A stretch of DNA of 64,000 nucleotides from an uncultured Archangium sp. (GTDB taxonomy: Bacteria; Myxococcota; Myxococcia; Myxococcales; Myxococcaceae). Under the pieces are notes generated by a model. The model saw only the letters and a list, made by a program, of their open reading frames with translations. It did no database searches and was not told the DNA's origin. The position numbers were made by a program, and so were the translations under genes. The stretch spans positions 1 to 64,000 of the forward strand of contig CAIVGN010000134.1 of NCBI GenBank assembly GCA_903905455.1. Direction: 5' to 3'. Below are positions 42,501-59,547 of the stretch, in pieces. How positions within the stretch are numbered: the first letter of the stretch is position 1; every line of letters starts with the position of its first letter.

Positions 42501-44770
42501 AGATCGAAGCGGTTGGCGATGCGCCCGGCGACCACGTTGCCCAGCAACCCGGGGAACGAGTTCTCCTGCCAGCCCACGTACGAGGCGCTGATGCGCGCCA
42601 CCACGTCTTGCGCCGTCTCCGCGTCCACGCCCGCCTCGGCGAGCGCCTTCTTCCAGTGCGGGTGACCCAGCCGGGCCCCCAGCGAGATGACCAACTCCTG
42701 CGTGCCAGTCACCCCGAGCAGCACGCTGGCGCGCGCCCGGTTCCACGCCACGTCTTCGCCGTAGCCCGCGTCTTCCAGCGCCATGCGCGCGACCACCAGC
42801 GCCAGCAACTGCGAGGTATCGGTGGCCTCGAGGATCGACGGCGGAATGCCGAACTCGGTGGGATCGAACTTCGTGGTGGGGAGGAACCCGCCGCGCTTGG
42901 CGTAGGTCCGATCCGGCGACTTCGGGTCGGCGTCGTAGAAGTCCTCGAGCGACCAGTGCGTGTTGGGGATCTCCCCCGTGGCGTCATCGCCGGTGCGGAT
43001 CAGCTTCCAGAACTCCTGCAGCGTCGCCGACTTCGGGAAGAGCGCGCCCATGCCGACGATGGCGATGGGATCCTTCGTCCGCGCGGGGCTCTTCGGCGCG
43101 CCGGTGACCGGGGCCGGCTTCACCTCGGCGCCCACCAGCAGCGCGTCGAGTTCCAGGTGCGTCCGCGGCGCGAAGTGTTCGACCTCCGGGGGCAGCACCA
43201 CGCCCTGGCTGCGCAGCGCGGTGGCGCGGCTGAGCACGCAGGCGCCGACCAGCAGGTTCCGGGCGATGAGCACCGCCTCGCGCGCGTTCCACGGCTCGAG
43301 CACGCTGCCCTGCGCCCACGCGTTGAAGGCGCCCATCGAGGGGCCACACCACACCTGGTAGTCGAGCTTGCGCTCCACCACGCCCGCGTTCGCCCAGCGC
43401 GAGGCCTGGCCGAGGTACGCGCGGAACACGAGCGCCATGCGGTGCTTCGGGTCGCTCGCGGCCTTCTCCAGCTGCGCCGGGTCGCGCTTCCCGAAGAAGT
43501 CCACGCAGCCCTGCCACGCCTGCTCCAGCGTGGACTTGAAGTACTTCGCCTCCAGCTCGTCGCGCACCGCGGCCGGCAAGGCTTCGAGGCTCGCGTGGGC
43601 GCGGTACAGCTCGAGCAGCCGCTGCGCGCGCACCGCGAACAACGTGCCGCGCGTGAGCACCTGCACCTTCACGCCCATCTCGAACATGTCCGCGGCCGGG
43701 GCCATGGCCACGTCGGTGGTGGCGGCCTTCGCGAGCATCTCGCGCACCGCGTCGGACGTGCCCGCCTCGCGCGTCGCCTGGTTGATGCTGCCGGTCACCA
43801 CGTAGGCCGCGCCCATGGAGAACGCGGTGGCCACGCTGGCCGGGGTCGCCAGCCCACCGGCGGCGCCGATGCGCGGACGCAGGGCGTAGCGGTGCTGGGC
43901 ACAGACCTCGTCACGCAGCGCCTGCAGCGCGGGCAGCAGCAGCACCAGCGGCCGGTTGTCCGTGTGCCCGCCCGAGTCGGCCTCGGCGGTGACGTCGTCG
44001 GCCATCGGGACCAGGGCGGCGAGCTCGGCCTCGGCGGCCGTGAGCTGTCCCTTGCTCACCAGCTCGGCCAGCAGCTTCGCGGGTGCGGGCTCGAGGAACT
44101 TCCGGGCCACCTCCACGCGCGAGACCTTGGCCATCACCCGGTGGGGCACCACGATGGCGCCGCTCGCGTCACGGTGCAGGCCGGCCGCGCGGTACCGCAC
44201 CACGGGCAGGGTCAGGTCGAGGTACGCCGACGCGCTGACGAAGCGCACGCCGCGCGCGAGGAACAGCTCGACCAGCGCCGCCTCGAGCCTCTGATCGTCC
44301 GGCGAGTGGATGAGGTTGATGCCCCAGGTCTTTCCCGCCAGCGACGCCGAGAGGCGATCGAGGGCCTCGGTGACGCGCTCCAGCGACAGCCCCGCCGCGC
44401 CGAACACGCCCAGGTAACCCGCACGGGTCACGGCCTCGACCAGCGCCTCCGAGGCGATGCCGTTGGCCATCTCGCCGGCGACGTAGGCCGCCTGCACCCC
44501 GTAGGCGCGCAGGAAGGTCGCGTCGCCGAGCCGGTCCGGGGTCAACGCCGGGGCGTGGCCCAGCAGCCGGAGCTCACCCTCCGCCTGGGTCCCGCCGAGC
44601 TTCGCCACCCCGCCCTCGCCCACCGCCGGAACCCCGTCTCCTTCCACGAGGTTGAGGGGCCTTGCCACCTGCGCGAGGCCTTCGCGAAACGCGAGGGGTC
44701 CCGTCTTCGGTCGGGAGGTGCCAGGCACCCAGGAGCCGAGGGCATGAGAAGCGAGATCGGGACGGTTCAC
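36551..44770 (-). CDS. pfaA: PUFA synthase PfaD-PfaA fusion: ER-KS-AT-4xACP-KR-DH
   Basis: The protein has 2739 residues from a GTG at 44770 with GGAG six bases upstream. The first 540 residues are a complete PfaD-type FMN enoyl reductase (VEADSGGHTDNRPL, RIGAAGGLATPASVA, VTGSINQATREAG), normally a separate protein. Then come KS (about 565-1010; Cys768 in DAACASS), malonyl acyltransferase (about 1120-1430; Ser1219 in GHSYGE), a Gln-rich helix (about 1510-1552), four ACPs with LGIDSIKR serines at about 1643, 1737, 1828 and 1918, KR (about 2000-2450; VTGGARG near 2180, Tyr2370) and a C-terminal DH (His2477 in HRLSGREVLP). It extends and processes the growing polyunsaturated chain with the PfaC-like subunit. 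The ER-first fusion is unusual. Confidence 0.92.
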   Translation of the reverse strand: MNRPDLASHALGSWVPGTSRPKTGPLAFREGLAQVARPLNLVEGDGVPAVGEGGVAKLGGTQAEGELRLLGHAPALTPDRLGDATFLRAYGVQAAYVAGEMANGIASEALVEAVTRAGYLGVFGAAGLSLERVTEALDRLSASLAGKTWGINLIHSPDDQRLEAALVELFLARGVRFVSASAYLDLTLPVVRYRAAGLHRDASGAIVVPHRVMAKVSRVEVARKFLEPAPAKLLAELVSKGQLTAAEAELAALVPMADDVTAEADSGGHTDNRPLVLLLPALQALRDEVCAQHRYALRPRIGAAGGLATPASVATAFSMGAAYVVTGSINQATREAGTSDAVREMLAKAATTDVAMAPAADMFEMGVKVQVLTRGTLFAVRAQRLLELYRAHASLEALPAAVRDELEAKYFKSTLEQAWQGCVDFFGKRDPAQLEKAASDPKHRMALVFRAYLGQASRWANAGVVERKLDYQVWCGPSMGAFNAWAQGSVLEPWNAREAVLIARNLLVGACVLSRATALRSQGVVLPPEVEHFAPRTHLELDALLVGAEVKPAPVTGAPKSPARTKDPIAIVGMGALFPKSATLQEFWKLIRTGDDATGEIPNTHWSLEDFYDADPKSPDRTYAKRGGFLPTTKFDPTEFGIPPSILEATDTSQLLALVVARMALEDAGYGEDVAWNRARASVLLGVTGTQELVISLGARLGHPHWKKALAEAGVDAETAQDVVARISASYVGWQENSFPGLLGNVVAGRIANRFDLGGTNCVVDAACASSLGALHLGIAELESGRTDLVLTGGVDTLNDIFMHMCFSKTPALSASGDARPFSDQADGTLLGEGIGMVVLKRLSDAERDGDRVYAVIRGIGTSSDGRAKSIYAPLASGQARALEAAYRDAGVTPRDITLVEAHGTGTKAGDAAEFEALQKVYGADSQDPAWCALGAVKSQIGHTKAAAGAAGLIKAALALHHRVLPPTIKIDKPNAVLKLEQSPFSIPTVARPWMSSARGPRRAAVSAFGFGGSNFHTVLEEYGDRRSAPAWDGSVELVSISGADVASVQGKLTELAKTETLASFAQSTRESFRVSDAHRLVVLISASTKREDLVATLRTRIAKDPSQGFTLPEGAVYGVGPATGSLALLFPGQGAQHVDMLRELACLFPEVLEAVDADPALAGAVYPLPTFDAEKQATREAYLTRTDIAQPSLGAVERGLLGVLARFGVDAKLLAGHSYGELVALHAAGVLSAEGLARASRQRGQLMAGDGSDRGTMLAVLAPLADIEKLLAEEKLSLVLANRNGPSQGVLSGSREEIAKAEVACKARSMRATRLNVGAAFHSPLVADAATSFQQALTEVEFSSPRVPVIANTTAKPYPADEAGARALLAHQLAKPVRFDEVVEALYAAGARTFLEVGPKSALTSMVKAILGQRSFTAVALDAQGRRGGVFDFALALAQLAAQGHPVRLAEWNRAVNPPRWTNKAPRVPKMVVPLTGANYRSPTKAIPPRAAKPVVQRQELAAPVNLDAGMSDLLRQHQASLGALQSLQEQTARVHQRFLEGQMATQQTLASMMTGQAPRPMPVFSPVSAPALVAQVPAPLPAPVVVVAALPPKSNGKVAHALEAPVDSVAILLSAVAEATGYPRETLELKMDLEADLGIDSIKRVEILSMVSRRIPGAPSVNPEQLSGLRTLQQVAEFVGRNGVAKVAAPVAVASAVPSVDVKATLLSTVCELTGYPVDTLSLEMDLEADLGIDSIKRVEILSMLSRRIPGAPSVNPEKLSGLKTLAQVHAFISAAVPSAPAEVVVAAPSVPVDATLLSTVCELTGYPVDTLSMEMDLEADLGIDSIKRVEILSMLSRRIPGAPSVNPEKLSGLKTLAQVRDFIAQGLPSVVAAVVSAPVVSVDATLLSTVSELTGYPVDTLSMEMDLEADLGIDSIKRVEILSMLSRRIPGAPSVNPEKLSGLKTLAQVRDFIAQGAPSAAAPVAVVVAKKPLVPKQLVVRRAVMPIRAAAPSGVGVRLPSATIVVTRDGTGLSEALARAFERAGHPCVVQDLGHPLPALIGGVVVVAPAQTTDLHLKQALKLAREASSSLRSTPHAFFATLTHRDGAFGFVTAGHALVGGFAGLPKSLSHEWPEVRCRAFDVSSLWTPDEAAAAFVEELTNEGPAELGIGPSGRVTLGLRTSDAVVATDRLKSGDVVIVTGGARGVTADCARELAKATGATLVLLGRSPAPIAEAEWLAAAKDETAIKKALLDHAPAGQRPSPKQLGEAFKLVMAGRDIRATLEGLASLHVRAEYRQVDVRDAAAVAAVMAEARSLGPIRGVVHGAGVLRDKRIEDKRDDDFDQVLDPKLGGLHAVLEATREDDLTVIALFASVTGRFGRRGQSDYAVANQALVSIAQAEGARRPHARVVALDWGPWAGGMVTPALEATFRAEGVSLIPLDGGARAFVAESLAAAGSGSEIVLGAGFGEELEAGWTLAHTERIDATWPVLAAHRLSGREVLPLAMVLDWFTGAARASVNGHVLLGLDDVRVLKGVTLQGGPESLSVWTGPVEVQGLEATMPLELRNLRDQVHVRAVARFGPPGATTSPTLAPAGLAPFTTSVETVYREQLFHGPSLEAITAIEGLGEEGMTLTLRAHPTTEQLVPGPARAWSSDPLVVDGIFQALIVWTRARLGAPSLPSRVDSLRWLRPIVGASVRAVVKVRSVEGASVVSDIELVDATGALVGKLSGYQCTVSSTLARAFESESSSIRSTPSA
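38893..39945 (-). repeat. Four tandem ACP-coding repeats
   Basis: Inside the PfaD-PfaA gene four carrier-protein units repeat with spacings of 270, 273 and 282 bases, measured between the LGIDSIKR codons (Ser codons at 39842-39844, 39560-39562, 39287-39289, 39017-39019). The three downstream units are nearly identical in DNA over long stretches, while the first is more diverged. This suggests recent unequal recombination or gene conversion. Multiple ACPs in PUFA synthases act in parallel and raise product titre. Confidence 0.9.
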
Positions 44771-46821: not shown

Positions 46822-48030
46822 TTACTGGAGGGTGAAGGTGGTGATCACCACGCCGGCGCCCTGGTTGCCGCCGTTGGCCGAGCCCGGCTGGAACACGCCG
46901 CAGAACCAGCGGGTGGTGCCGTTGGCGCGAACCTCGACCTCGTAGGGGATGGGCGTGTTGACCGAGCAGCTACTCCAGTTGTTGGCGCGCACGGTGTACG
47001 TGCCACGGGTCGGCACGAGGCCCGGCGGGTAGATGATGTTCTCCACCGGGGTGCTGGTCAGGCCCGACGGGGGATCGGTGTTCGTCCCGCAGGCACGGTT
47101 GGCGTCGAGATCGAGCCAGCCCTTGGCGCCGCAGCGGCTGGGCACGTACGGGATGGGGAACGGGAGCGGGATCGGGGGCGGCGGCGGGTTCGGGTCGCTG
47201 CCCGGGTCGCCGTAGTAGATCTCGCAGGTGCCGCCGTTGGGCAGCGGCTCGACGACGTAGAGATCGAGGTCGCACTGCTGGCCCCAGCGCAGCGTGGCCT
47301 GCACCGGGCCGGAACGGCCGCGCAGCTCGCACAGCCCGCTGAGGCACTCGTAGCCCTTGGGGCACTCGTTGGTGCAGGCGCGCGTGCCGGCGTCGATGGG
47401 AATGCACCGCGCGGTCTGGCCGGCGTCGTTGAAGAAGATGGGCGGGTTGGTGCTGCCGGTGCCACCACCGGTGCCGCCCGAGCCGCCACCAGAGCCTGAA
47501 CCGCCGCCCGTCCCCGGCGCGACGCAGGTGTGGGTGTTGAGATCGCACAGGCTGCCGCTCACCGGGCAGTCGTCGGGCTGCATGCACTGCACGCAGGCAC
47601 CCGCCGGTGGCACCGTCAGGTCGCAGGCTGGCGTCGCTCCGCCGCAGCCCTTGCTCAGGGTGCACACCATGCACCGGGCTTGGCCACCGTTGGTGACCGG
47701 TAGGAGACAGACTGGCAACGCGCCGCTGCAGCCCAGCGTCTCCGTGCAAGCCGTGCAGGTGTTGGTGACCGGGTCGCAGATCGGCGTCACACCGCTGCAG
47801 CCCGGGGTGCACGCGCCCATCACCGCGCCCGCGTCGCTGCCCGCGTCCGTCGCCGAGCTGCTGCCGCCACCCGAGCCACCGGAGCCGGTCGACGCGCACT
47901 TACCCGTCGTGGGGTCGCACGCGAGGTCCGGGCCGCACTTCACCTCGGCACAGAGGTCGCTGGTCGGCCCGCACTGGCAACCAAACCAGGCAGAGAGAAT
48001 GAAGGAGACGGCGAAGGCGCGGAGCTTCAT
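46822..48030 (-). CDS. Cys-rich repeat lipoprotein
   Basis: The protein has 402 residues. The signal MKLRAFAVSFILSAWFGC has lipobox WFGC, with lipidation expected at Cys18. Residues about 40-175 contain Gly/Ser linkers and about four Cys-rich modules of 30-40 residues (for example TPICDPVTNTCTAC, TPACDLTVPPAGACVQC, GSLCDLNTHTC). Then comes a second Gly/Ser linker, one more Cys module, and a C-terminal beta domain with a Pro-rich loop (about 270-285) and DLDLYVVEP-like motifs seen in myxobacterial exported proteins. It is probably on the outer membrane or cell surface. Its role is unknown; it may share transcription with the ATPase gene 33 bases upstream. Confidence 0.8.
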   Translation of the reverse strand: MKLRAFAVSFILSAWFGCQCGPTSDLCAEVKCGPDLACDPTTGKCASTGSGGSGGGSSSATDAGSDAGAVMGACTPGCSGVTPICDPVTNTCTACTETLGCSGALPVCLLPVTNGGQARCMVCTLSKGCGGATPACDLTVPPAGACVQCMQPDDCPVSGSLCDLNTHTCVAPGTGGGSGSGGGSGGTGGGTGSTNPPIFFNDAGQTARCIPIDAGTRACTNECPKGYECLSGLCELRGRSGPVQATLRWGQQCDLDLYVVEPLPNGGTCEIYYGDPGSDPNPPPPPIPLPFPIPYVPSRCGAKGWLDLDANRACGTNTDPPSGLTSTPVENIIYPPGLVPTRGTYTVRANNWSSCSVNTPIPYEVEVRANGTTRWFCGVFQPGSANGGNQGAGVVITTFTLQ

Positions 48031-48063: not shown

Positions 48064-51000
48064 TCAGCCCCGCCCCTTCGGCTTGCGCCCCCTCGAGGGA
48101 AGCGCCTTGAGCAGCTCCAGGGCTTCCTTGGTCTGCTGCCAGACCGTCATCGCCTTCACGCTGCCCTCGGAATCGAGCTGCAGGGCGGTGCGCGCGGCCA
48201 GGGCCAGCTCACTGAGCCGCTCCTGGATGAGCAGCAGCTGCATGGCCATCTCCTCGCGGAAGGAGCCCTCGTTCTCGGAGGTCTGGGCCTGCAACTGGGC
48301 ATTCTGCGCGAGCTGTTGGAGCACCGGCCCCAGGTCGATCGGGGGCGCGGCCGCCACCGGCGCGGGCCGCTGGGCCACCGCCTGGGACAGCTTCTCGAGC
48401 ACGGGCCCGAGATCGACCGCGGGGGCAGCCGCCACCGGCGCGGGGCGCTGCGCCACCGCCTCGGCCAGCTTCTCGAGCACCGGCCCCAGGTCGAGCTGCG
48501 GCACGGCGACCGGGGTCGGGGCCTTCAAGGCCACGCCCAGCTTCGCCACCGCGTCCTTGAGCGCGTCGAGCCGGGGCCCCACGTCGCTGGGGGACTTCGG
48601 CTTCTGCATCAGCGCGAGCAGCGCGTCGAGGCGCGGCCCGAGATCGCTCTGCGGCCGCTTCCCCACCGCCGCGGTCAGCGCGTCGAGGTGCGGGGCGAGC
48701 GCTTCCCCACCTTGCTGCTGTTGCGCGGCGTCGAGCATCACCTGCTTGAGCTGCCCCAGCTCTTCACCCAGCGAGGCGATGCTCCCGGTGACGCGCACCA
48801 CGGGGTCGTCTTCCGCGCCGCCCTGCACCTGCACGCGCTTGAAGCCCCGCTTGATCTCGTCCCAGCGGGTCTTCTGCTCGGGCGACTGCCGGTGGCGCAT
48901 CTCGGCCAGCTTGAGGAGGTTCTGCTCGGCCGCGGCGGTGAGCGTCTGCGACTCGCTGGCGTAGTGCCCGTCGAGCAACGACTCCAGCTCGGGCTCGGTC
49001 ATCGCCGCGACGATCTTCTCGGCGAGCTTGCCCATGTTCCGGTAGCTGCCCTGGAGCTTGAAGGGCGGCTCGGTGCGGAACCGGTCGTCCTGGGAGGCGC
49101 TGCGGATGTACTCCTGGTTCACCTGCAGCAGCGTCTTCTGCACGTAGGAGAAGCGCCGGGTGACCTCGACGATCTCGTTCAACTCGGCGGCGCTGTAGCC
49201 GTGCTCCATCTCGTTGACCGAGATGGCCCCGCCCTGCGCCATGGCCAGCACGCGGTGGAGATCGGCCGTGGAGCGCGTGAGCAACGGCGCGGTGACGCTG
49301 TTCGCCGAGAGCGCGTTCTCGAGGTAGCTGAGCGCGAAGAGGTCCTGCTTGCCCCCGAGGATGTCGCCCAGGTTGTAGGTGTCGGCGCGGTTGGCGAGCA
49401 TGTCGGGGATGCGGAAGCGCTCGCCCGACTCGGTGTACGGGTTGCCGGCCATCACCACGCAGAACTTCTTGCCCCGCAGATCGTAGGTGCGCGTGCGGCC
49501 ATTCCACACGCCCTCGACCTTGCGGGTCGCGTCACACAGCGAGATGAACTTCTGCAGCAGCTCGGGGTTCGTGTGCTGGATGTCGTCCAGGTACAGCATC
49601 ACGTTGTTGCCCAGCTCGAAGCTGAAGTTGATCCGGTCGACCTCCTGCCGCGCGGTGGCGTTGGGCGCCTCGGTCGGGTCGACGCTGGTCACCTCGTGGC
49701 CCAGCGACGGGCCGTTGACCTTCACGAAGGTGAGGCCCAGGCGGCTGGCCACGTACTCCATGAGCGTCGTCTTGCCGTAACCGGGGGGCGAGACCAGCAA
49801 CAGCAGGCCCATGCGATCGGTGCGCTTGTTCTCGCCGGCCACGCCGAGCTGCTTGGCGAGGTTCGCGCCGATGAGCGGCAGGTACACCTCGTCGATGAGG
49901 CGATTGCGCACGAAGCTCGAGAGCACCTTGGGCTTGAGCTCCTCGAGGCGCAGCTTGTGGCGCGCCTCGTCGAGCAACTGCCGCACCTTGGCGCGGTACT
50001 TCTGCCAGGCAGGGGTGCGCTCTTCGCCGAACCACGTCATGCGCTGCTCGAGCTCGTCGAGGCGCACGCTCAATACCTGGCTCACCACCCGCGGGTGCTG
50101 GCCCAGCAGGCCCTTGACCTCGAACGACAGGAGGGCCGACGAGATGTCCCGCGAGAGCAGGTGCTCGTCGGCGGCGATCAGCGCGGCCGCCTCGGGCACC
50201 ATGGTCAGCCAGGTCGCCGCCTGGGGCCCGGCCTGCTTCGCGTGCGCCTCGAGCCACTCCCGCGCGAGGCGGAAGCGGCCGGGGAGATCGCCATCGAGCG
50301 CGCGGAGATCCTCTTCGAACACCAGGCGCTGACCGACGAGATCCAGCGCGGCGTAGAGGTCGTCACGCAAGGCCACGGCCTCGCCGGCCACCACGAAGCG
50401 CAGCGGCTCCTGGGCCAGCTCCTCGGACAGGTAGCGCGCCACGGTCGCCAGCTCGGGAGCCGAGAGGGTCAGCCGCGCGCTCTGTACGAAGCTCGTCAGG
50501 TGCGGCAGCAGTTCGTCAGCGAGCGTCTCCAGCGCCGGGGAGCCCGGGTAGCGGTGCCGGAGCCGACCGAGGCTCGACCCGCGCCGGTCGAACGCGCCCT
50601 TGAGCGCGTCCTCCCTCCACGACGCCCAGAAGAGCGTCGCCACCGCGCGCGGCCAGGCCGGGAAGCGCAGCAGGTCGGCCCCGTCGTACACGCTCAGGAG
50701 CTGCTCGAGGATCAACGCCGCGTCGGCGTCGTGCACCCCGCGCTCGTAGCCGTCGTCGAGGCGCGCCTGCGCAAACTCGCGCATGACGCTCAACAACCCG
50801 GGCCCGCGCACCGCGTCTCGCAGGGCCTGCAACGAGAGGCCCTTCTCGCCCCGCTCGGCCGCCCGCAGCACCGTGTGGGCGAGGTACTCGCCGCGGTACA
50901 CCTCCGGCGACTCCGAGGGCAGGTTTTGATCCCAATAGGCGCGCGCGGCGTCGATGTCGGGGTCGCTCAGGCGCTGCAGGTAGTCCGAGCCCGAGAGCTG

Positions 51001-53649
51001 CAGGTACAGCCCGTCATCGCGGGGGATGACGGTCGCCTCGAGGGGCTGGGTGTTGACGTTGAAGCGGTAGGGCCCGAGCTTGACCACCGCCGTGCCACCC
51101 TCGAAGAGGTCCTTTTTGTCGCGCAGCTGGCGCAGCGCGTCCTGCTTGGCGGTCTTGAGCCGCGAGTCGAGTTCGTCGGCCTTCACCGAGTCCTTGAGCT
51201 CCAGCAACTGCGCGGTCAGCGAGCGCAGCTTCTGCAACATCGGGTCGGCGGCGAAGTAGGTGTTGAGCTCGTCGTCGGTGGTGAAGGTGTTCGCGCGGCG
51301 GGTCACCGACTGCAAGATGCGATCGGCGGCGTCGAAGAGGTTCTGCCCGCGGCGGTTGCGCTCGTCGACCAGCACCTGCTTGCGCTTGCCGAAGGCCTCC
51401 AGCAGCTCCTCGCGGCGGGTGGTGAGCTCGGCGGCGAACTCGTCGAAGTCCGAGAAGCGGCCCTCGAGTTCCTCGAGTTGCAGCGTGAGCTTCGAGAGCT
51501 GCTCGTCACACTTCTCGGGGTTGTCGGCCAGCGACAGCGCCGAGTCGATGCTCTGGGCGAAGAGCTTGAACTGGCTGCCGAACTCGGCGCGCTTCTCCGA
51601 GCCGACCAGCTGCTTCTTCTTCGCCTGCACCGTGGCGCGGACGCGGTTGAGCTGCGCGAACACCTCGGAGATGTCCTCGAGGATCTTCGCCTTCTGCGTG
51701 GGGTCGCCGGCGTTGAGCCCACCCACCACTTCGCCCAGCAACGAGAGGCCGGTGCCCAGGCGCTCGACCTCGGTGACCAGGGGCGCCAGCTCGATGGTCT
51801 TGGTGACCTTCTCGGCCTGGGCCGACACCGTCTTGACGCCCGCGTGCAGCGGCTCGAAGGCCTTCGGCGTCAGCAGGAAGTCGACGCAGCGCTTCGAGAC
51901 GTCGTCGAAGGCCTGCTTCACCTCCGCTTCCATCGCCTCGATCTTCGGCAGCTCGATGTAGCGGACTTCGCGGATGGTGATCAGCTTGCCGAGCTGCGAC
52001 CGCAGCCCGCCCAGCGTGTCCATGAAGGCGTCGGTGGTGGTGAACTCGTCGGAGAGGATCTTCCCCAGCAACGCCTGCTGCGCGTCACTGGCCTGCGCGA
52101 GCGCCTCGGCGGCGCGGCGCTGCATCGAGAGCACCTTCTCGAACTCGTCGATGATCAGCTCGGCGTTCTTCTTGAGCTCCTGGATGATCGCCAGCAGCCC
52201 GATCTCGCCATGGCCCAGCCAGTGGAACTGGTCCGTCACCCGGGTACACGAGGTGACCAGCGCGTCGTAGCTGCGGCGGGTGACCTGCTGCGACTCGGCG
52301 AGGCGCTGCAGCGTGAGCACCTCCGAGATCCCGCGCACCAGCTCGGCGTTGCCCAGCTTGCCCAGGGCGCTCTGCGGCGTGGGGGCCGAGGCCGCGAACT
52401 CCGCCGAGACGAAGGGCGTCTGCCACACCTGCACCGGGTGCACGCGCGTGGGTTCCTCCGACATGGTGCGGAAGACCACCATCTGCCCGTCGGGGAAGAT
52501 CGAATACCCGTGGCAGGTGATCGGCGCGGCGATCTCCTTGCGCACCAGGTTGTACGGGAAGAGCACGTACTTCCCCAGGGCTCGCTCGAAGAACACGAAG
52601 AGCACGTCTTCGCCGTTGGGGCTGACCACCTTGCGCTGGAAGACGAGGCCGCCGACGTCCTGCTCGAAGACCTTGGCTTCCCCGGTCTGCAGCACGAAGC
52701 CGCCGGGGAAGATGATGCCCTGCTCTTCGGGCAGCGAGACGCACGACTGGCCGATGGCGTCGGCCCGGGTCACCTGGCGGGTGCGGGTGTTGAAGACCAG
52801 GTAGCGGTACTTGTCCTCGCGGAAGGGCAGCACCTTCATGAGGATCAACGCGCCGATGCGCACGTAGTGGAACTCGGCGTCGTCCAGCGACTGGATCGCC
52901 TCGTCCACGGGCTCGGCGTAGATGCCCTGCCCCGTCTCGGTGTTGTTCTCGACCTTGATGGTGAGATCGCCGCCCACGGTCTCGATGAACAGCTCGTCGA
53001 GGATGTTGACGTGCGGGTGCCGCCCCGAGACGAAGTGCTCGCGCGTCGCCCGCTCGTAGGTGAAGTCGTGGGTGGGCGGCACCACCACGTCGGCGTCGCC
53101 GCGGTTGTCGAGGTAGGTCAGCCGCCCCGAGGTATCGACCCCGAAGCGCAGCACCTTCACGTCGCGCAGCGTGTGCCCGGTGCGGAACGTGGCCAGCAAC
53201 CGCGCCTCGGTCTTCTCGAGGTGGTTGAGCCGCGCGTCCTTGTAGAAGCGGAACAGCTCCTCGAAGTCCTTCACGAAGCGACGATCTTCGAGGAACCCGC
53301 CGGCCTCGCTCTTGGGAAGCTCGGCGAAGTCGAAGGCGCCGTCAGCCGCGCGCGCGAACTTGTGCAGCGAGAACACGTCGCTCACGGAGCGCTCTTGCTT
53401 GAGCCCCATGAAGACGTTGAACCCCAGCAGGAGGTGCGGCCCCACGGGAACGATGTCCCGGGCGACGCAGTTGTGCTCGGTGCGCACGCGCTCGGTCCCG
53501 AGCACGGTGAGCTCCTGCCCACCGAACTCGGTGCGACGGCGCGTGTTGAGCGCCACGGTCTTCTCGCCCAGCGACTTCGCGGTCGACAGCAGCCGGGTCC
53601 GGATGACCTCGTAGCTGCCGCCGACGAGCGACGGATTTTCTTCGGCCAT
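48064..53649 (-). CDS. Large AAA 'DNA repair ATPase' (DUF3686-type)
   Basis: The protein has 1861 residues. The N-terminal 450 residues are the DUF3686-like beta-rich region (ETVGGDLTIKVENNTETGQG, DDAEFHYVRIG). A long helical, coiled-coil-prone middle (about 470-900) follows. An AAA module has Walker A PPGYGKTT near 1290 and Walker B VMLYLDDIQHTNPELL near 1350. A C-terminal region about 1650-1790 has imperfect repeats around LGPVLEKLxxAVAQRPAPVAAA. The family is named DNA repair ATPase in databases, but its biochemistry is poorly known. It starts six bases after the flotillin stop, so it surely works with the flotillin/OB-fold membrane proteins, perhaps as a membrane-linked remodelling ATPase. 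Confidence 0.8.
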   Translation of the reverse strand: MAEENPSLVGGSYEVIRTRLLSTAKSLGEKTVALNTRRRTEFGGQELTVLGTERVRTEHNCVARDIVPVGPHLLLGFNVFMGLKQERSVSDVFSLHKFARAADGAFDFAELPKSEAGGFLEDRRFVKDFEELFRFYKDARLNHLEKTEARLLATFRTGHTLRDVKVLRFGVDTSGRLTYLDNRGDADVVVPPTHDFTYERATREHFVSGRHPHVNILDELFIETVGGDLTIKVENNTETGQGIYAEPVDEAIQSLDDAEFHYVRIGALILMKVLPFREDKYRYLVFNTRTRQVTRADAIGQSCVSLPEEQGIIFPGGFVLQTGEAKVFEQDVGGLVFQRKVVSPNGEDVLFVFFERALGKYVLFPYNLVRKEIAAPITCHGYSIFPDGQMVVFRTMSEEPTRVHPVQVWQTPFVSAEFAASAPTPQSALGKLGNAELVRGISEVLTLQRLAESQQVTRRSYDALVTSCTRVTDQFHWLGHGEIGLLAIIQELKKNAELIIDEFEKVLSMQRRAAEALAQASDAQQALLGKILSDEFTTTDAFMDTLGGLRSQLGKLITIREVRYIELPKIEAMEAEVKQAFDDVSKRCVDFLLTPKAFEPLHAGVKTVSAQAEKVTKTIELAPLVTEVERLGTGLSLLGEVVGGLNAGDPTQKAKILEDISEVFAQLNRVRATVQAKKKQLVGSEKRAEFGSQFKLFAQSIDSALSLADNPEKCDEQLSKLTLQLEELEGRFSDFDEFAAELTTRREELLEAFGKRKQVLVDERNRRGQNLFDAADRILQSVTRRANTFTTDDELNTYFAADPMLQKLRSLTAQLLELKDSVKADELDSRLKTAKQDALRQLRDKKDLFEGGTAVVKLGPYRFNVNTQPLEATVIPRDDGLYLQLSGSDYLQRLSDPDIDAARAYWDQNLPSESPEVYRGEYLAHTVLRAAERGEKGLSLQALRDAVRGPGLLSVMREFAQARLDDGYERGVHDADAALILEQLLSVYDGADLLRFPAWPRAVATLFWASWREDALKGAFDRRGSSLGRLRHRYPGSPALETLADELLPHLTSFVQSARLTLSAPELATVARYLSEELAQEPLRFVVAGEAVALRDDLYAALDLVGQRLVFEEDLRALDGDLPGRFRLAREWLEAHAKQAGPQAATWLTMVPEAAALIAADEHLLSRDISSALLSFEVKGLLGQHPRVVSQVLSVRLDELEQRMTWFGEERTPAWQKYRAKVRQLLDEARHKLRLEELKPKVLSSFVRNRLIDEVYLPLIGANLAKQLGVAGENKRTDRMGLLLLVSPPGYGKTTLMEYVASRLGLTFVKVNGPSLGHEVTSVDPTEAPNATARQEVDRINFSFELGNNVMLYLDDIQHTNPELLQKFISLCDATRKVEGVWNGRTRTYDLRGKKFCVVMAGNPYTESGERFRIPDMLANRADTYNLGDILGGKQDLFALSYLENALSANSVTAPLLTRSTADLHRVLAMAQGGAISVNEMEHGYSAAELNEIVEVTRRFSYVQKTLLQVNQEYIRSASQDDRFRTEPPFKLQGSYRNMGKLAEKIVAAMTEPELESLLDGHYASESQTLTAAAEQNLLKLAEMRHRQSPEQKTRWDEIKRGFKRVQVQGGAEDDPVVRVTGSIASLGEELGQLKQVMLDAAQQQQGGEALAPHLDALTAAVGKRPQSDLGPRLDALLALMQKPKSPSDVGPRLDALKDAVAKLGVALKAPTPVAVPQLDLGPVLEKLAEAVAQRPAPVAAAPAVDLGPVLEKLSQAVAQRPAPVAAAPPIDLGPVLQQLAQNAQLQAQTSENEGSFREEMAMQLLLIQERLSELALAARTALQLDSEGSVKAMTVWQQTKEALELLKALPSRGRKPKGRG
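48300..48690 (-). repeat. C-terminal tandem repeats of the large ATPase
   Basis: Two units matching DLGPVLEKLxxAVAQRPAPV are followed by a third, shorter DLGPVLQQLAQ. Upstream are two looser LGPRLDALxxxM/V units. Each is about 26-34 residues and helical, with Ala/Pro linkers. DNA identity between the two best copies is high, pointing to recent duplication. The likely role is oligomerisation or partner binding. Confidence 0.7.
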
Positions 53650-53655
53650 GAGCGC

Positions 53656-55752
53656 TTACTTCGAAGGCGTGGCGAGCTTGGACATGAGGGCCGCGGCCGC
53701 GAGGTTCTGCGCGTCCTGCGTCACGCCGGGCTTCGAGAGGATGTCCTTGAGATCCTGCGGCAGCTCCCGCTCGCCCGACAGGTAGGGCTTGAGGAAGGTC
53801 TTCATGGTGTCGGTGCTCGTCGCGGTCGCCTCCACGGCGTGCGAGAGCGAGACCGCGCGGACGAACTGGTCGAAGAAGGCGCCGTCGCCGCCCACGATGT
53901 TGATCTTCGCGCTCGCCATGGCCGTGGCCATGACCTGCGCCTGGCTGGCCGCGATGTCGCGCCGCACGTGCAGGGTCTCCATCTCGACCTGCTTCTCCTT
54001 GTCGAGGCGCAGGCGGAACTCCTCGTGGTCCTTGGTCGCGCCCTGCAGCAGGGCCATGGCCTTGGCCTTCTCCGAGAGGCCGCGGGCCTCGGCCAGCAGC
54101 TTCTCCTGCACGCCCACCGACTCGGCGAGCGCCATCAAGCGCACCGCCTCGGCCTGGGCGTTGCCCTTCTTCTGCAGCGCCTCGGCTTCCGCCTCGAGCA
54201 CCTTGGCGTGCGCCAGGCCCTTCTGCTGATCGCCCTCGGCCTCGGCCAGCAGCTTCTGGCGCAGCACGTTGGCATTGGCCTGGCCCTGCTTCTCGGTGGC
54301 CACGGCGTCGGCTTCACGCACGCGCACCTGGGCGAGCCCCTGCTTCTCCTGCGCGAGCGCCTGGGCCTCGAGCACGCGCGCCTGGGCCAGGCCCTCGGCG
54401 GCCGCTTCGGCCTGGTGACCTTCGGACTGGCGGATCTTCGCGCGGGCTTCCTTGTCCGCCGACTCCAGCATCGCCTCGGCGGTGATCAGCCGCTGGCGGG
54501 CCTCGTGCTTCGAGACCTCCTCGTTGGCCTCGGCGGCCTTCACGCGCTCCACGGAGAGCTCGCCGGCGCGGGCCTCGGCGTCGATGATCGCCGCTTCCTT
54601 CTTGCGGTTGGCCTCGGCCACCAGGCGCAGCTGCTTGATGTTCTCCTCTTCGAAGGCGACCTTCTTGTCGACGGCGATGCGGGTGCTGATCACGTCGGCG
54701 ATGGCCTTGCGCTCGGTCTCCAGCGCCTTCTCCTTGCCGATGCGCTGCAGCTCGACCTCGCGCTCACGCGAGATGGCCTCCAGGGCCCGGTCCTTGGCGA
54801 CGCGCTCGGTCTCGATGCCCACCACGCGCTCGCGGTTCTTCTCGGCGACCTGCACCTGGCGGGTCTTGTTCTGCTCGTTGATCTGCAGCTCTTCCTCGGC
54901 GCGCACCCGGGCCAGCTCGGCCTTCAGGTGCTCTTCCTGCTGCACGCGCTGGGTCTCGGCCTGCTCGCGCGCCTGGATGGTGTCGATCTCGCGCTTCTGC
55001 TTGGCCTGGGCCTCGGCGCGCTGGCGCTCGAGCGCGAACACGGCCTCGTCGGCCTCGACGTTCTGCTTGGTGATCTTCTTGCGCTCGTCCTGGCGGAAGT
55101 CGTTGGTGAGCACGTTCTGGATGGTGGTCAGCTCGGTGATCTTCCGGATGCCCTGGGCGTCCAGGATGTTCTCCTTGTCGAGCATCTCGAGGGGCGTCTG
55201 CTCGAGGTAGTCGATGGCCACGTCTTCGAGCATGTACCCGTTGAGGTCCTTGCCGATGACCGAGACGATCTGGTCCTTGAAGACCTCGCGCTCCTTGTAG
55301 AGGTCCTCGAAGTTGAGGCGCTTGCCGACGGTCTTCAGGCCTTCCGAGAACTTGGCCTCGAAGAGCTCCTGCAGGGTCGCGAGGTCAGAGGCGCGCACGC
55401 AGCCGACGGCGCCGGCCACCTTGAGCACGTCTTCCACCGTCTTGTTCACGCGCACGAAGAAGCTGACCTTGATGTCGGCGCGGATGTTGTCGGCGCAGAT
55501 CAGGCCCTGCTTCCCGCGGCGGTCGATCTCGATCGACTTGAGCGAGATGTCCATCACCTCAGCGCGATGGATGATGGGGATCACCACTGCCCCGGTGAAC
55601 GACACCTTGGGCTCGGGCTTCATGGTGTTGACGATGAGCACCTGGCCCTGCGCGACCTGTCGGTAGAACCGCGCGATCAGCATCGCGAAGCCCACGAGGA
55701 GCAGCAGGCCGATGCCAATGGCGGAGAGGATGGCGGTGATTGTCGGAGACAT
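53656..55752 (-). CDS. Flotillin/SPFH-domain protein (YqiK-like)
   Basis: The protein has 698 residues. One N-terminal membrane segment (about 5-28) is followed by the SPFH domain (about 35-215: SLKSIEIDRRGKQGLICADNIR, GYMLEDVAIDYLEQTPL) and a very long coiled coil (about 220-600) rich in Glu, Ala and Lys repeats. A globular tail ends in LAAAALMSKLATPSK. Flotillins form inner-membrane cages that organise microdomains. It lies 48 bases after the OB-fold membrane protein and six bases before the large ATPase, a three-gene set. Similar YqiJ-YqiK pairs exist in enterics, but the added ATPase points to a distinct machine. Confidence 0.88.
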   Translation of the reverse strand: MSPTITAILSAIGIGLLLLVGFAMLIARFYRQVAQGQVLIVNTMKPEPKVSFTGAVVIPIIHRAEVMDISLKSIEIDRRGKQGLICADNIRADIKVSFFVRVNKTVEDVLKVAGAVGCVRASDLATLQELFEAKFSEGLKTVGKRLNFEDLYKEREVFKDQIVSVIGKDLNGYMLEDVAIDYLEQTPLEMLDKENILDAQGIRKITELTTIQNVLTNDFRQDERKKITKQNVEADEAVFALERQRAEAQAKQKREIDTIQAREQAETQRVQQEEHLKAELARVRAEEELQINEQNKTRQVQVAEKNRERVVGIETERVAKDRALEAISREREVELQRIGKEKALETERKAIADVISTRIAVDKKVAFEEENIKQLRLVAEANRKKEAAIIDAEARAGELSVERVKAAEANEEVSKHEARQRLITAEAMLESADKEARAKIRQSEGHQAEAAAEGLAQARVLEAQALAQEKQGLAQVRVREADAVATEKQGQANANVLRQKLLAEAEGDQQKGLAHAKVLEAEAEALQKKGNAQAEAVRLMALAESVGVQEKLLAEARGLSEKAKAMALLQGATKDHEEFRLRLDKEKQVEMETLHVRRDIAASQAQVMATAMASAKINIVGGDGAFFDQFVRAVSLSHAVEATATSTDTMKTFLKPYLSGERELPQDLKDILSKPGVTQDAQNLAAAALMSKLATPSK

Positions 55753-55800
55753 CGTGTGTGTTCCCCCTTGCGTGAAAAGAAGAGCGGGCGAGCTGACGTG

Positions 55801-56547
55801 TCAGCGGCGCCGCACCCGACCAGAGATGATCTGCGCCGCCCGGGTCGGGTCGTTCAGCGCTTCGATTTCTTGTGGCAGGAGCCAGTCGACGGGCTCGATC
55901 TCGTAGATGCCCTTGGCGGCGTCGAAGTCGATGAGGATCGCCCGGTCACCCTTCTTGAGCGTGTTGGGCTTGGCGCAGACCACGTGCACGTTGAGCCCGG
56001 CGCCACCGTCGGCCACCAGCGCGGTGCCGAAGCCCGCGTCGACCTTGCCGCTGGTGATGCTGCAGATCTGGCCGAGGCAGTCGCGGCTGCGCGCCGGGTT
56101 GCTCTGGTTGAGGGCCTTGCCCAGCGGCTGCAGCAGGAAGGCGGCGCCGAACAAGCCGACCACCAGCGAGCCGACGAGCACCAGGGCCTGCAGCACCACG
56201 GCTTCGGGGCCGATCCACAGCGTGGCCAGCACGCAGGTCAGCCACGAGACGAGCAACGCGGTGCTGCCGGTGATGGTGACCGGCACCCGGGCGAGGCCCA
56301 GCACCGACAACACGCCGCTCTCGGCCAGCTCGTGGTGATCGTGCCCATGCCCCGCGACCTCGGCGCTACCCTTGAGCGCCCCGAGCACCGCTTCACTGGC
56401 GCCCTTCACCCCACCCGTCGCCGCGTCGGCCGCGTCGAAGGCCGCACCGGTGACCAGGGCGAAGACCCAGTACCCGATGACCACGCCAAGCAGCACCGTG
56501 AGGGGAACGGTGGGGAACGTGGTGATGGCGGTGAGGAACGGCTCCAT
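55801..56547 (-). CDS. Membrane protein with OB-fold domain (YqiJ-like, NfeD-type)
   Basis: The protein has 248 residues from the ATG at 56547; a GTG at 56568 would add seven residues. The N-terminal half has about three to four membrane segments (FPTVPLTVLLGVVIGYWVF, ALLVSWLTCVLATLWI, ALVLVGSLVVGLFGAAFLL), with a short His-rich loop (GHGHDHHE) between the first two. The C-terminal part (about 160-248) is the small OB-like beta barrel of NfeD/YqiJ proteins (ICSITSGKVDAGFGTALVADGG). Such proteins partner flotillins. It is first in the operon with the flotillin and the large ATPase. The His-rich loop could bind metal, which is speculative. Confidence 0.82.
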   Translation of the reverse strand: MEPFLTAITTFPTVPLTVLLGVVIGYWVFALVTGAAFDAADAATGGVKGASEAVLGALKGSAEVAGHGHDHHELAESGVLSVLGLARVPVTITGSTALLVSWLTCVLATLWIGPEAVVLQALVLVGSLVVGLFGAAFLLQPLGKALNQSNPARSRDCLGQICSITSGKVDAGFGTALVADGGAGLNVHVVCAKPNTLKKGDRAILIDFDAAKGIYEIEPVDWLLPQEIEALNDPTRAAQIISGRVRRR

Positions 56548-56692
56548 GAATGCGCGGCACTCGACCACGCGAAGGCGTCAGGTACCAACGCAAAACCGGG
56601 CCCCCCCCTGCCCGCAAGATTTCCGCATTTTCTCGACGGAGAACGACAGGCAAGGCCGCTTTGGGCTCAAGCCTGAACCGCGGCGTCCAGCA

Positions 56693-57250
56693 CTACTGCG
56701 CGTCGTCGCGGCCCAACGACACGCGCACCGAATCACCGTCGCGCACCAGCTCGACCTGCCACGGGCGGCAACACACCGGGCAGTCTTCGACGTAGCTCGC
56801 CCCGCCCGCCTCTTCCGGCGCGCAGCTCACCACCACCGCCTCGCCGCAATAGGGGCAGCGCGAGGCGTGCTCGAGCTGCGCGTCCATCGAGGCCACCAGC
56901 GAAGGGGGCCAGGCCGGGCGGGCCGAGGGGACCCACGGGTGGCGGGCGTGCTCCAGGCTGGTCACCAGCCCTTCCCGCAGGCCCTCGAGATCGAGGCCGT
57001 CCAGGGTCTCGTCCAGCTGACCCAGCTTCTCCATGGCGCGCAGCAGCAGCCGGTTCGCCCCCGTCAGGTTGCCGCGCTCGTGGTGGTGCAACCCCGCGGT
57101 CCACAACACGAGCACTTGCAGCACTTGGCGCTCCGAGCCCCGGGTGCGCCGCCAGCCTGATTCCCAGGCCTCGTGGGCCACGTGAAAGGCGCCCTTCTCG
57201 AACAGCTCACGACCCGCCTCGAGAGAGGCGCTGAAAGTAGGGGAAGCCAT
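56693..57250 (-). CDS. DUF309 protein fused to a Cys-rich CPxCG zinc module
   Basis: The protein has 185 residues. The N-terminal half (about 1-110) is a DUF309 helical bundle with the signature HVAHEAWESGWRR. The C-terminal part (about 125-185) has CPYCGEAV and CPVCCRPW, the zinc-ribbon-like pairs of stand-alone CPxCG-motif proteins. These two families usually occur separately, so this looks like a fusion. Both are of unknown biochemical function. It lies 17 bases downstream of the BKACE gene on the same strand and may be co-transcribed with it. Confidence 0.75.
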   Translation of the reverse strand: MASPTFSASLEAGRELFEKGAFHVAHEAWESGWRRTRGSERQVLQVLVLWTAGLHHHERGNLTGANRLLLRAMEKLGQLDETLDGLDLEGLREGLVTSLEHARHPWVPSARPAWPPSLVASMDAQLEHASRCPYCGEAVVVSCAPEEAGGASYVEDCPVCCRPWQVELVRDGDSVRVSLGRDDAQ

Positions 57251-58221: not shown

Positions 58222-59543
58222 ATGGATCTCTTCGATCGCGCAGCATCCGTCGACGCCGAGGCCCGGGCGCCGCTCGCCGAGCGCATGCGGCCGCGCACGC
58301 TCGACGAGTACCTGGGCCAGGAGCACCTCACCGCCGCCGGCCGGCTGCTGCGCAAGGCCATCGAGCTCGACCAGGTGCCCTCGATGATCTTCTGGGGCCC
58401 CCCGGGCACCGGGAAGACGACCCTGGCGCGCATCATCGCCCACGCCACCGGCGCGCACTTCGACTCGGTGTCCGCGGTGCTCAGCGGCGTGAAGGACCTG
58501 CGCGAGGCCGTGGCCGCCGCCGACCAGCGGTGGAAGATGAACCGCAAGCGGTCGATCCTCTTCGTCGACGAGATCCACCGCTTCAACAAGTCGCAACAGG
58601 ACGCCCTGCTGCCCCACGTCGAGAAGGGCACCATCACCCTGCTGGGGGCCACCACCGAGAACCCCTCGTTCGAGGTCAACGCGGCGCTGCTCTCGCGCAT
58701 GCGGGTGATGACCCTGCGCGGGCTCGAGGAGGAAGAGCTGCGCACCCTGCTGCGCCGGGCCGTGGCCGACCCGCGGGGCCTCGACGGCAAGGTGACCATC
58801 GACGACGACGCCATCGCCTTCATCGCGATGATCGCCGCCGGCGACGCGCGCAAGGCCCTGACCGCCCTCGAGGTGGCCGCGAAGTACGGCGGCACGCACG
58901 TCACCCGCGAGGGCGCCGAGGAGGCCGTGCAGCAGCGGACCCTGCTCTACGACAAGGGCGGCGAAGAGCACTTCAACGTCATCTCGGCCTTCATCAAGTC
59001 CATGCGCGGCTCCGACCCCGACGGCGCGGTGTACTGGCTGGCGCGCATGGTGGAGGCCGGTGAAGACCCGCGCTTCATCGTGCGCCGCATGGTGATCTTC
59101 GCCAGCGAAGACGTGGGCAACGCCGACCCCCAGGCCCTGCAGGTGGCGATCAACGCGCTCCAGGCCGTGGAGCTGATGGGCTTCCCCGAAGGCACCCTGC
59201 CCCTGACGCAGGCCGTGACCTACCTGGCGATGGCGCCCAAATCGAACACCGCGCTGACCACCTACGCCAAGGCCCGCGAGGCGGTGCAGAAGCACGGGCC
59301 GCTGCCGGTGCCGATGCACCTGCGCAACGCGCCGACGAAGTTGATGAAGTCCCTGGGCTACGGCGGCGGCTACCAGTACCCCCACGACTTCGAGGGGCAC
59401 TACGTGCACGAGAACTACCTGCCCGAGGGCCTGCGCGCCGAGAAGTTCTACGAGCCGTCAGGCAACGGCGCCGAGCAGAAACACAAAGAGCGGATCGAAC
59501 AGATCCGCTCCTCGAGAGCACCGAAGGAACCGGGCGAAGACGG

Positions 59544-59547
<4 letters not shown>
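58222..59547 (+). CDS. rarA: Replication-associated recombination protein A (RarA/MgsA)
   Basis: The protein has 441 residues. It is an AAA+ clamp-loader-like ATPase: Walker A GPPGTGKTTLA (59-69), Walker B ILFVDEIHRFNKSQQDALLP, sensor LLGATTENPSFEVN, and the C-terminal tetramerisation region (GFPEGTLPLTQAVTYLAMAPKSN). RarA acts at stalled replication forks with SSB. The ATG at 58222 has GGGAG four bases upstream. Its stop overlaps the convergent NtrC-type gene by three or four bases. Confidence 0.95.

Follow-up and report, generated by a model that had tools for sequence, protein, structure and literature searches.

A stretch of 64,000 nucleotides from an uncultured Archangium sp. (Myxococcota; contig CAIVGN010000134.1), called the window below, carries on its minus strand three genes that encode a small membrane protein with an OB domain, a protein of the SPFH/flotillin family and a giant AAA+ ATPase. 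This trio is a real, conserved, functionally linked and widespread gene set. An earlier note, made from the sequence of the window, had described the three genes as tightly packed, and the three open reading frames (ORFs) were indeed found one after the other, with gaps of 48 base pairs (bp) between the OB and flotillin genes and 6 bp between the flotillin and ATPase genes. The features of the locus are the following:

55801-56547, minus strand: OB-domain membrane protein, 248 amino acids (ORF list, hydrophobic stretches, AlphaFold2 fold matches)
53656-55752, minus strand: SPFH/flotillin-family protein, 698 amino acids (ORF list, hhalign to Escherichia coli YqiK)
48064-53649, minus strand: giant AAA+ ATPase, 1861 amino acids (ORF list, Pfam, hydrophobicity scan)
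52222-53571, minus strand: DUF3686 (PF12458) region of the ATPase, residues 27-476 (Pfam)
51610-51864, minus strand: DUF7902 region of the ATPase, residues 596-680 (Pfam)
48889-49956, minus strand: AAA+ motor module of the ATPase, about residues 1232-1587 (motif conservation, model, fold matches)
48067-48792, minus strand: variable Ala/Pro-rich C-terminal tail of the ATPase, residues 1620-1861

The three ORFs are genuine genes, because the same trio occurs in the same order in 16 of 20 homologous regions from other Myxococcota genomes. These neighbourhoods were picked for diversity out of 93 Myxococcota genomes that bear the ATPase, and the identity across them is 50-72% for the ATPase, 53-79% for the flotillin and 31-57% for the OB protein. 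One of the four regions without the full trio has an ATPase that begins at the contig edge (L038), and the other three (L042, L043 and L049) all belong to a single family, f25. The closest named relative among the matches listed is an uncultured Archangium (L052; 77% ATPase identity), and the ATPase of one locus (L035) is divided over two frames. The OB gene of the window has an ATG start at 56547, and an alternative GTG lies 21 bases further upstream, also in the open frame. The G+C content of the window ranges from 66 to 73% (2-kb steps). A frame of 2786 amino acids on the plus strand (48316-56676) runs antisense over the larger part of the ATPase gene and on through the flotillin and OB genes; it is most likely a shadow of the high G+C content, and antisense frames recur in the homologous loci.

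The presence and absence of the genes across the phylum was followed in 195 Myxococcota genomes. DUF3686 was detected in 93 of them (24 of 90 genera), normally in a single copy. The flotillin profile, named A2, matched 104 genomes at E<=0.001. The flotillin was counted as present at 200 bits or more, which was the case in 94 genomes; ten genomes with a weaker match (22-97 bits) were scored as being without this type, and all ten are also without the ATPase. Both genes are present in 92 genomes, the ATPase only in one, the flotillin only in two and neither in 100, that is, presence and absence agree in 192 of 195 genomes. Counted by genus (n=90), the corresponding numbers are 23, 1, 2 and 64. 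The three discordant genomes (G146, G194 and G017) are draft assemblies in which the gene that is present reaches the contig end where its partner would be expected, and are perhaps only apparent exceptions. The four genomes of family f25 (G183-G186) all have the ATPase on another contig than the OB-flotillin pair, and both have been kept. Past the flotillin, 7-10 kb of downstream sequence in L135-L138 contain no ATPase, and ahead of the ATPase, 5-7 kb of upstream sequence in L042, L043 and L049 contain no flotillin; the ATPase contig of G184 starts inside the gene, and this genome was judged from the flotillin side. A similar situation occurs in Labilithrix (L109), where the 10 kb upstream of the ATPase contain no flotillin, the flotillin is found on contig C104 and the ATPase record is numbered 28. 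Of the present evidence for a functional link independent of gene order, this retention after unlinking is the strongest.

A wider scan, in which the best 80 of at least 535 relatives were kept as named loci, extended this picture. Judged by their titles and the usual placement of the genera, these loci represent Myxococcota, Gamma- and Betaproteobacteria, Actinomycetota, Planctomycetota, Acidobacteriota and Lentisphaerae. More than 3 kb of sequence upstream of the ATPase is available in 72 loci, and the flotillin lies there in 71 and the OB gene in 70 of them; across all 80 loci, the flotillin is found in 77 and the OB gene in 70. The flotillin and ATPase genes are separated by a median of 89 bp; 63 of 77 loci have a gap of no more than 200 bp and 11 a negative one, and the gap between the OB and flotillin genes is at most 200 bp in 67 of 70 loci, all these gaps being lower bounds because ORF starts were taken as the first possible ones. 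Four loci (L094, L110, L058 and L061) have a flotillin-ATPase gap of 2-6 kb. The flotillin profile is specific, since it matches 78 of the 7819 ORFs of the 80 loci. Tree distances, compared over 70 loci, correlate with r=0.93 for ATPase and flotillin, 0.875 for ATPase and OB protein and 0.80 for flotillin and OB protein, and shared ancestry accounts for part of these correlations. Because the ATPase and the flotillin co-occur both throughout the phylum and in the 80 loci, there is good support for a functional connection of the ATPase with the flotillin scaffold. The earlier note had named a lack of co-occurrence of the ATPase with flotillins in other genomes as its refutation, which was not borne out, and conservation of the neighbourhood, one of the checks that it had proposed, came out in its favour.

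The names of the two smaller proteins rest on profile and structure comparison, because Pfam is silent on both proteins of the window. The flotillin contains a single N-terminal hydrophobic anchor (stretch 1-31), an SPFH domain and a long Ala/Glu-rich coiled coil, the last of these judged by eye. Alignment of profile A2 with E. coli YqiK by hhalign gave a probability of 99.8 and an E-value of 1.2e-27 over 395 columns, which cover the SPFH domain and the coiled coil, the coiled-coil part being weak evidence by itself. No Pfam family was found at E<=0.1, Band_7 included, for either the window protein or its Pseudomonas homologue (L070). Because a Streptomyces homologue (L086) clears the Band_7 cut-off (27.5 versus 23.6 bits) and these two do not, the Band_7 model misses divergent members. 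A search of PDB sequences with the flotillin profile gave no match, and the NCBIfam model FloT scored 13.9 bits against a cut-off of 700. The homology to YqiK, together with the Band_7 match of the Streptomyces protein, bears out the designation of an SPFH flotillin that had been given on first inspection.

The OB protein has three hydrophobic stretches in N-terminal helices, followed by a C-terminal OB domain. Its AlphaFold2 model (17 sequences; mean predicted local distance difference test, pLDDT, 78) aligns best with 3cp0 (Z 10.4), 3wwv (10.2), 2k5h (10.1) and YuaF (2k14; 9.2), and the NfeD homologue 2exd follows at 7.8. The first unrelated fold appears at Z 6.8, and E. coli QmcA-YbbJ (8z5g) comes next at 6.7. 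A stomatin operon partner protein is among the top matches (the group at Z 9.2-10.4), and we take 3cp0 and 2k5h to be of the NfeD type. Hydrophobic N-terminal helices, an OB domain of the NfeD type and a gene that adjoins an SPFH gene are thus found together, as is characteristic of the NfeD/YuaF family, and the predicted structure assigns the OB domain to the NfeD/YuaF type. The protein had been called YqiJ-like, which agrees with the fold of the OB domain, but the direct match of the OB profile to E. coli YqiJ by hhalign is weak (probability 36.9, E 3.6e-4). Pfam returned no family at E<=0.1 for the window protein, a homologue (L131) reached 14.6 bits with YqiJ_N, under its cut-off of 23, and the PDB sequence search with the OB profile gave two matches only (E 1.1, OXA1L).

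The third protein of the trio matches PF12458 with 653.8 bits (E 1.4e-196; curated cut-off 25 bits), and its P-loop AAA+ module starts near residue 1283 according to Pfam, in agreement with its earlier description as an 1861-residue DUF3686-type ATPase. A simple scan detected no hydrophobic membrane segment, and Pfam gave no match to a protease family. The motor carries a Walker A motif (SPPGYGKTT), a Walker B motif with two aspartates (DD; residues 1355-1356, window 49582-49587), a sensor-1 motif (GNP) and an arginine, R1421, which is a candidate arginine finger. In 94 of 94 sequences, a set that includes near-duplicates, there is no change in the residues of Walker A, the two aspartates of Walker B, GNP or R1421, and these motifs identify the protein as a member of the AAA+ family. 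In the model of the motor region (residues 840-1640, 87 sequences; mean pLDDT 89.9), the best structural alignments were obtained with the MoxR proteins CbbQ and NorQ (Z 15.4-16.9, with 16.9 for CbbQ and 16.4 for NorQ), and dynein (15.0), Rea1 (13.8) and ClpA (13.4) also aligned. Neither RuvB nor a Vps4-like classical AAA protein is among the best 50 structural alignments, which does not amount to an exclusion of either. The predicted secondary structure of the model hints at an interrupted helix 2 and a hairpin ahead of sensor 1. The motor is tentatively read as one of the MoxR/dynein (helix-2-insert) type. The chains of CbbQ and NorQ comprise about 230-270 residues, whereas the motor described here is embedded in a protein of 1861 amino acids. 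NorQ acts with a VWA protein, as does CbbQ; no VWA gene was found among the few neighbour families scanned here.

Outside the motor, the ATPase has a variable tail. Beyond residue 1620 it measures less than 50 amino acids in Actinomycetota loci, except L090, usually 100-375 amino acids in Gram-negative loci and only 17-18 amino acids in Limnobaculum, Xenorhabdus and Gilliamella. A search of PDB sequences with the ATPase profile gave weak P-loop matches, the best to Rix7 (E 0.0021), and, in the tail, weak matches to a designed coiled coil (E 0.00073) and to apolipoprotein A-IV. The tail of the window protein also contains an in-frame tandem repeat of 78 bp (48319-48494).

The genes that accompany the trio differ between groups of bacteria. 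DUF2170 and PspA clusters lie upstream of it in 25 of the 80 loci, all 25 from Gamma- or Betaproteobacteria by title; the cluster representatives match DUF2170 (PF09938) with 164.7 bits and PspA (PF04012) with 172.7 bits. The combination of PspA and DUF2170 within the operon, by which operons of the phage shock protein (PSP)/bac kind are recognised, was not found at the window locus, and the genome of the window contains one PspA homologue on another contig (66.3 bits; 65.6 bits by Pfam). Rhomboid and phospholipase D-like clusters, identified by their representatives, were found in 11 of the 80 loci each, mostly downstream, with one rhomboid gene on the opposite strand.

The gene set has already been described in print. 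Ravi et al. (2024, mSystems, PMC11237479) reported CesT/Tir-PspA operons that contain a band-7/flotillin protein, a YqiJ/YuaF protein and a novel coiled-coil/beta-propeller AAA+ ATPase, and also described abbreviated operons without PspA. These are the same three kinds of genes, and the window, where the operon includes neither DUF2170 nor PspA, represents the abbreviated form. From the common gene set we infer that the ATPase operons of Ravi et al. are the DUF3686 loci. In relation to the sections of that paper considered here, the additional points are the probable MoxR/dynein type of the motor and the co-retention of the genes after unlinking. The association between SPFH and NfeD genes is older still, the operon theme having been laid out in 2009 in a study of prokaryotic SPFH proteins (PMC2636767). 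In Pseudomonas aeruginosa, the bac operon bacABCDEF corresponds to PA3732-PA3729 and beyond (PMC2587700, PMC10948618, PMC13086221); this operon, which includes PspA, comprises six genes as determined by reverse transcription PCR (RT-PCR) (PMC10948618), and PA14_16160 encodes an NfeD homologue and PA14_16180 the SPFH protein PaFlo3 (PMC13086221). The bac operon thus has DUF2170, PspA, an NfeD homologue and an SPFH protein, whereas the window has neither DUF2170 nor PspA beside the trio. PA3728 is tabulated as an ATPase in a paper on adaptation in cystic fibrosis (PMC8190622), and the gene order suggests that it is bacE and carries DUF3686. In Pseudomonas composti (L070), the order is PspA, OB protein, flotillin and DUF3686 ATPase, plus a gene of the DUF2170 cluster, PspA and DUF2170 being assigned here by clustering with representatives scanned by Pfam. 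PA3729 is also present in an immunoprecipitation table, unenriched (1.28-1.30-fold; PMC8926400), and is one of many putative partners of PcrP (PMC12632274); neither appearance was used as evidence. Further papers that mention PA3728 or PA3729 list these genes in tables only. Literature searches gave no match for the term DUF3686 and none that joined 'flotillin' with 'DNA repair ATPase'.

Comparison with better characterised systems shows which parts of the trio are shared. The E. coli YqiJ-YqiK pair is alike in having a flotillin and a small membrane partner in the same gene order, but in the K-12 stretch examined yqiK is not followed by an ATPase gene, and DUF3686 was found in none of 14 control genomes. 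An SPFH cage with a small OB partner is the element in common with QmcA-YbbJ (8z5g), and an SPFH cage with an AAA+ machine the element in common with HflK/C-FtsH (PMC12624060). FtsH is a membrane-anchored protease, in contrast to the window ATPase with its lack of a hydrophobic segment and of a protease match in the searches described above. A 2026 study of the SPFH proteins of P. aeruginosa noted an absence of conserved genomic context (PMC13086221); the present data show that a PaFlo3-like type of flotillin keeps the same neighbours in several phyla. What most bacterial flotillins do is unclear, and an ATPase that, in Myxococcota, almost never occurs without one type of flotillin provides a concrete partner to test. 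The family label, the likely type of motor and the partners are now in a testable form.

Taken together, these observations are compatible with a single membrane-associated machine of the envelope stress response, in which an SPFH-NfeD scaffold would be served by a cytosolic MoxR-like remodeller, a reading to which we give an even chance. The flotillin-family protein would oligomerise at the cytoplasmic face of the inner membrane, which would be the site of action, with the NfeD-type protein as its membrane partner, by analogy with the SPFH-NfeD pair QmcA-YbbJ. The giant ATPase, as a soluble remodeller of the MoxR/dynein type, would dock on the cytosolic side of the scaffold. Most likely when the envelope is under stress, it would spend ATP on building, dismantling or rearranging complexes of membrane proteins or the scaffold as such. 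The data themselves show the gene set with its conservation and co-retention, the predicted NfeD-type and AAA+ folds and the conserved nucleotide-binding motifs; the guides to docking, rings, substrate and stress role are the relatives QmcA-YbbJ and HflK/C-FtsH and the PspA context. The envelope-stress role in particular is proposed because DUF2170 and PspA lie upstream in 25 of 80 loci and because the P. aeruginosa bac operon includes PspA; the rise of PA3728-PA3732 on phage infection (PMC12041424) is taken as support for the same context. The earlier note had pictured a membrane microdomain coupled to a large ATPase remodeller. Of this, a functional link of flotillin and ATPase is well supported (92 of 93 ATPase genomes); the remodelling of a microdomain is something that we infer. 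A more specific version, of which we are doubtful, is that an SPFH-NfeD scaffold with its own protease-free MoxR/dynein-type motor could constitute a soluble counterpart of FtsH that rebuilds instead of degrading, and that the mutual dependence of scaffold and motor might explain why they are retained after separation of their genes.

Several results weigh against this scaffold-remodeller machine. At Walker B, 94 of 94 sequences have DD where DE would be expected, so the rate of hydrolysis is uncertain. Foldseek orders the matches of the motor region by E-value with RuvB first (6.1e-6), CbbQ second (9.2e-6) and MCM next, and Pfam scores classical AAA (38.8 bits, residues 1283-1363) above AAA_5 (26.2 bits, residues 1283-1406). 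Both families are over their cut-offs in the window protein (22 bits for AAA_5), and L070 ranks them in reverse. The Foldseek order and the Pfam scores of the window protein both speak against a MoxR/dynein-type motor. YuaF, the best Foldseek match of the OB model, has an E-value of 0.0011, so that none gets down to 0.001. As 84 of the 93 ATPase-bearing genomes fall in one family, that of the window, the genome counts are not independent. The stress context is weakened by the absence of DUF2170 from 195 of 195 Myxococcota genomes and by the loose association of PspA with the ATPase, PspA being found in 89 of the 93 ATPase genomes and in 60 of the 102 others. Genetic data from P. aeruginosa point in the same direction: deletion of paFlo3 lowered biofilm by only about 20%, a marginal effect, the same study reported no pronounced phenotypes from paFlo deletions (PMC13086221), and an insertion mutant in PA3728, used as a control for growth, was unremarkable (PMC12599236). 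In the parts of the literature covered here, no functional test of the ATPase was found beyond this use of a control mutant.

An unlikely alternative is that the ATPase serves mainly as a disassembly motor for PspA/ESCRT-like polymers, similarly to Vps4 and ESCRT-III, and that the flotillin-NfeD pair merely positions it at the membrane. The DUF2170-PspA genes upstream of the trio in 25 loci fit this model, Ravi et al. (PMC11237479) propose that abbreviated operons may act with a PspA encoded elsewhere, and the genome of the window has a single unlinked PspA homologue. However, the motor aligns best with MoxR/dynein-type proteins and no Vps4-like AAA protein is found in the best 50 rows (with the reservation made above), 55 of the 80 loci, some of them cut by contig ends, have no DUF2170-PspA pair beside the trio, and DUF2170 is missing from every Myxococcota genome analysed. 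Equally improbable in our judgement is a co-regulated envelope-stress regulon whose products act separately and form no physical complex. Co-transcription could by itself account for the tight spacing, and in P. aeruginosa RT-PCR across every intergenic region demonstrated an operon, with a proposed sigma-54 site upstream (PMC10948618). Against such a regulon, the ATPase and the flotillin are retained together where they are no longer adjacent, and their presence and absence is concordant in 192 of 195 genomes.

An anti-phage defence system is a still fainter prospect. Weak PADLOC matches, the best to IetA (19.2 bits) and mostly located at the P-loop, and the response of PA3728-PA3732 to phage infection speak for it; unlike patchy defence islands, however, the ATPase is normally single copy and, in the family of the window, a genus with the gene carries it throughout its sampled members (84 of the 96 genomes of the family), and none of the three proteins matches a PHROG at E<=0.001. 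A role of the ATPase in DNA repair, the function given for DUF3686 in its Pfam description, is very improbable and finds no support beyond that database name and a general AAA+ resemblance (a RuvB_N match of 23.6 bits, under the cut-off of 27, and the first place of RuvB in the Foldseek list at a TM-score of 0.16 by query length, to which an MgsA-type gene in the window at 58222-59547 may be added), since the conserved partners are membrane proteins, CbbQ and NorQ lead the structural alignments, where RuvB is outside the best 50 (again not an exclusion), and no repair family was identified by Pfam among the recurrent neighbours in the 80 loci, in which most short recurring clusters, similar to shadow ORFs, were unscanned. 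The doubt in the earlier note about the 'DNA repair' label, as resting on annotation, was therefore justified.

In the window, the trio is flanked by a DUF309 gene and by a gene for a protein of 402 amino acids without a Pfam match. The first of them (56693-57250, minus strand), upstream of the trio and on the same strand, encodes DUF309 fused to a CPXCG cysteine-rich domain; it was rejected as a member of the set because at E<=1e-20 it recurs in only L041 and L053, apparently one contig, and L088 out of 100 loci. The second (46822-48030, minus strand), 33 bp past the ATPase, encodes a Cys-rich protein with a lipoprotein-like start, as judged by eye; it was considered as a fourth member and discarded, with no match above 45 bits in the 20 Myxococcota loci and none at E<=1e-20 in the 100 loci. 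In other genomes, genes intervene within the trio. ORFs in the larger gaps of seven loci were listed, and ten from five loci were scanned; they gave matches to OmpA, CopD, NYN, HepT-like and zinc-ribbon families, and several had no family, none being recurrent. At single loci, a caspase-domain gene lies between the OB and flotillin genes (L060, 4111-5889), and NYN-domain and HepT-like genes lie within the operon (L110, 6859-9953). Further along the window, two giant polyketide synthase (PKS)-like genes are found on the minus strand (30048-36626 and 36551-44770), the nearer of which stops 3.3 kb from the trio. Beside the trio in the 100 loci, PKS-like genes gave partial matches only, in L074 and L130, at E<=1e-20. 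One gene of the pair contains four FabA-like domain stretches and the other four acyl-carrier stretches, a composition that resembles a polyunsaturated fatty acid synthase.

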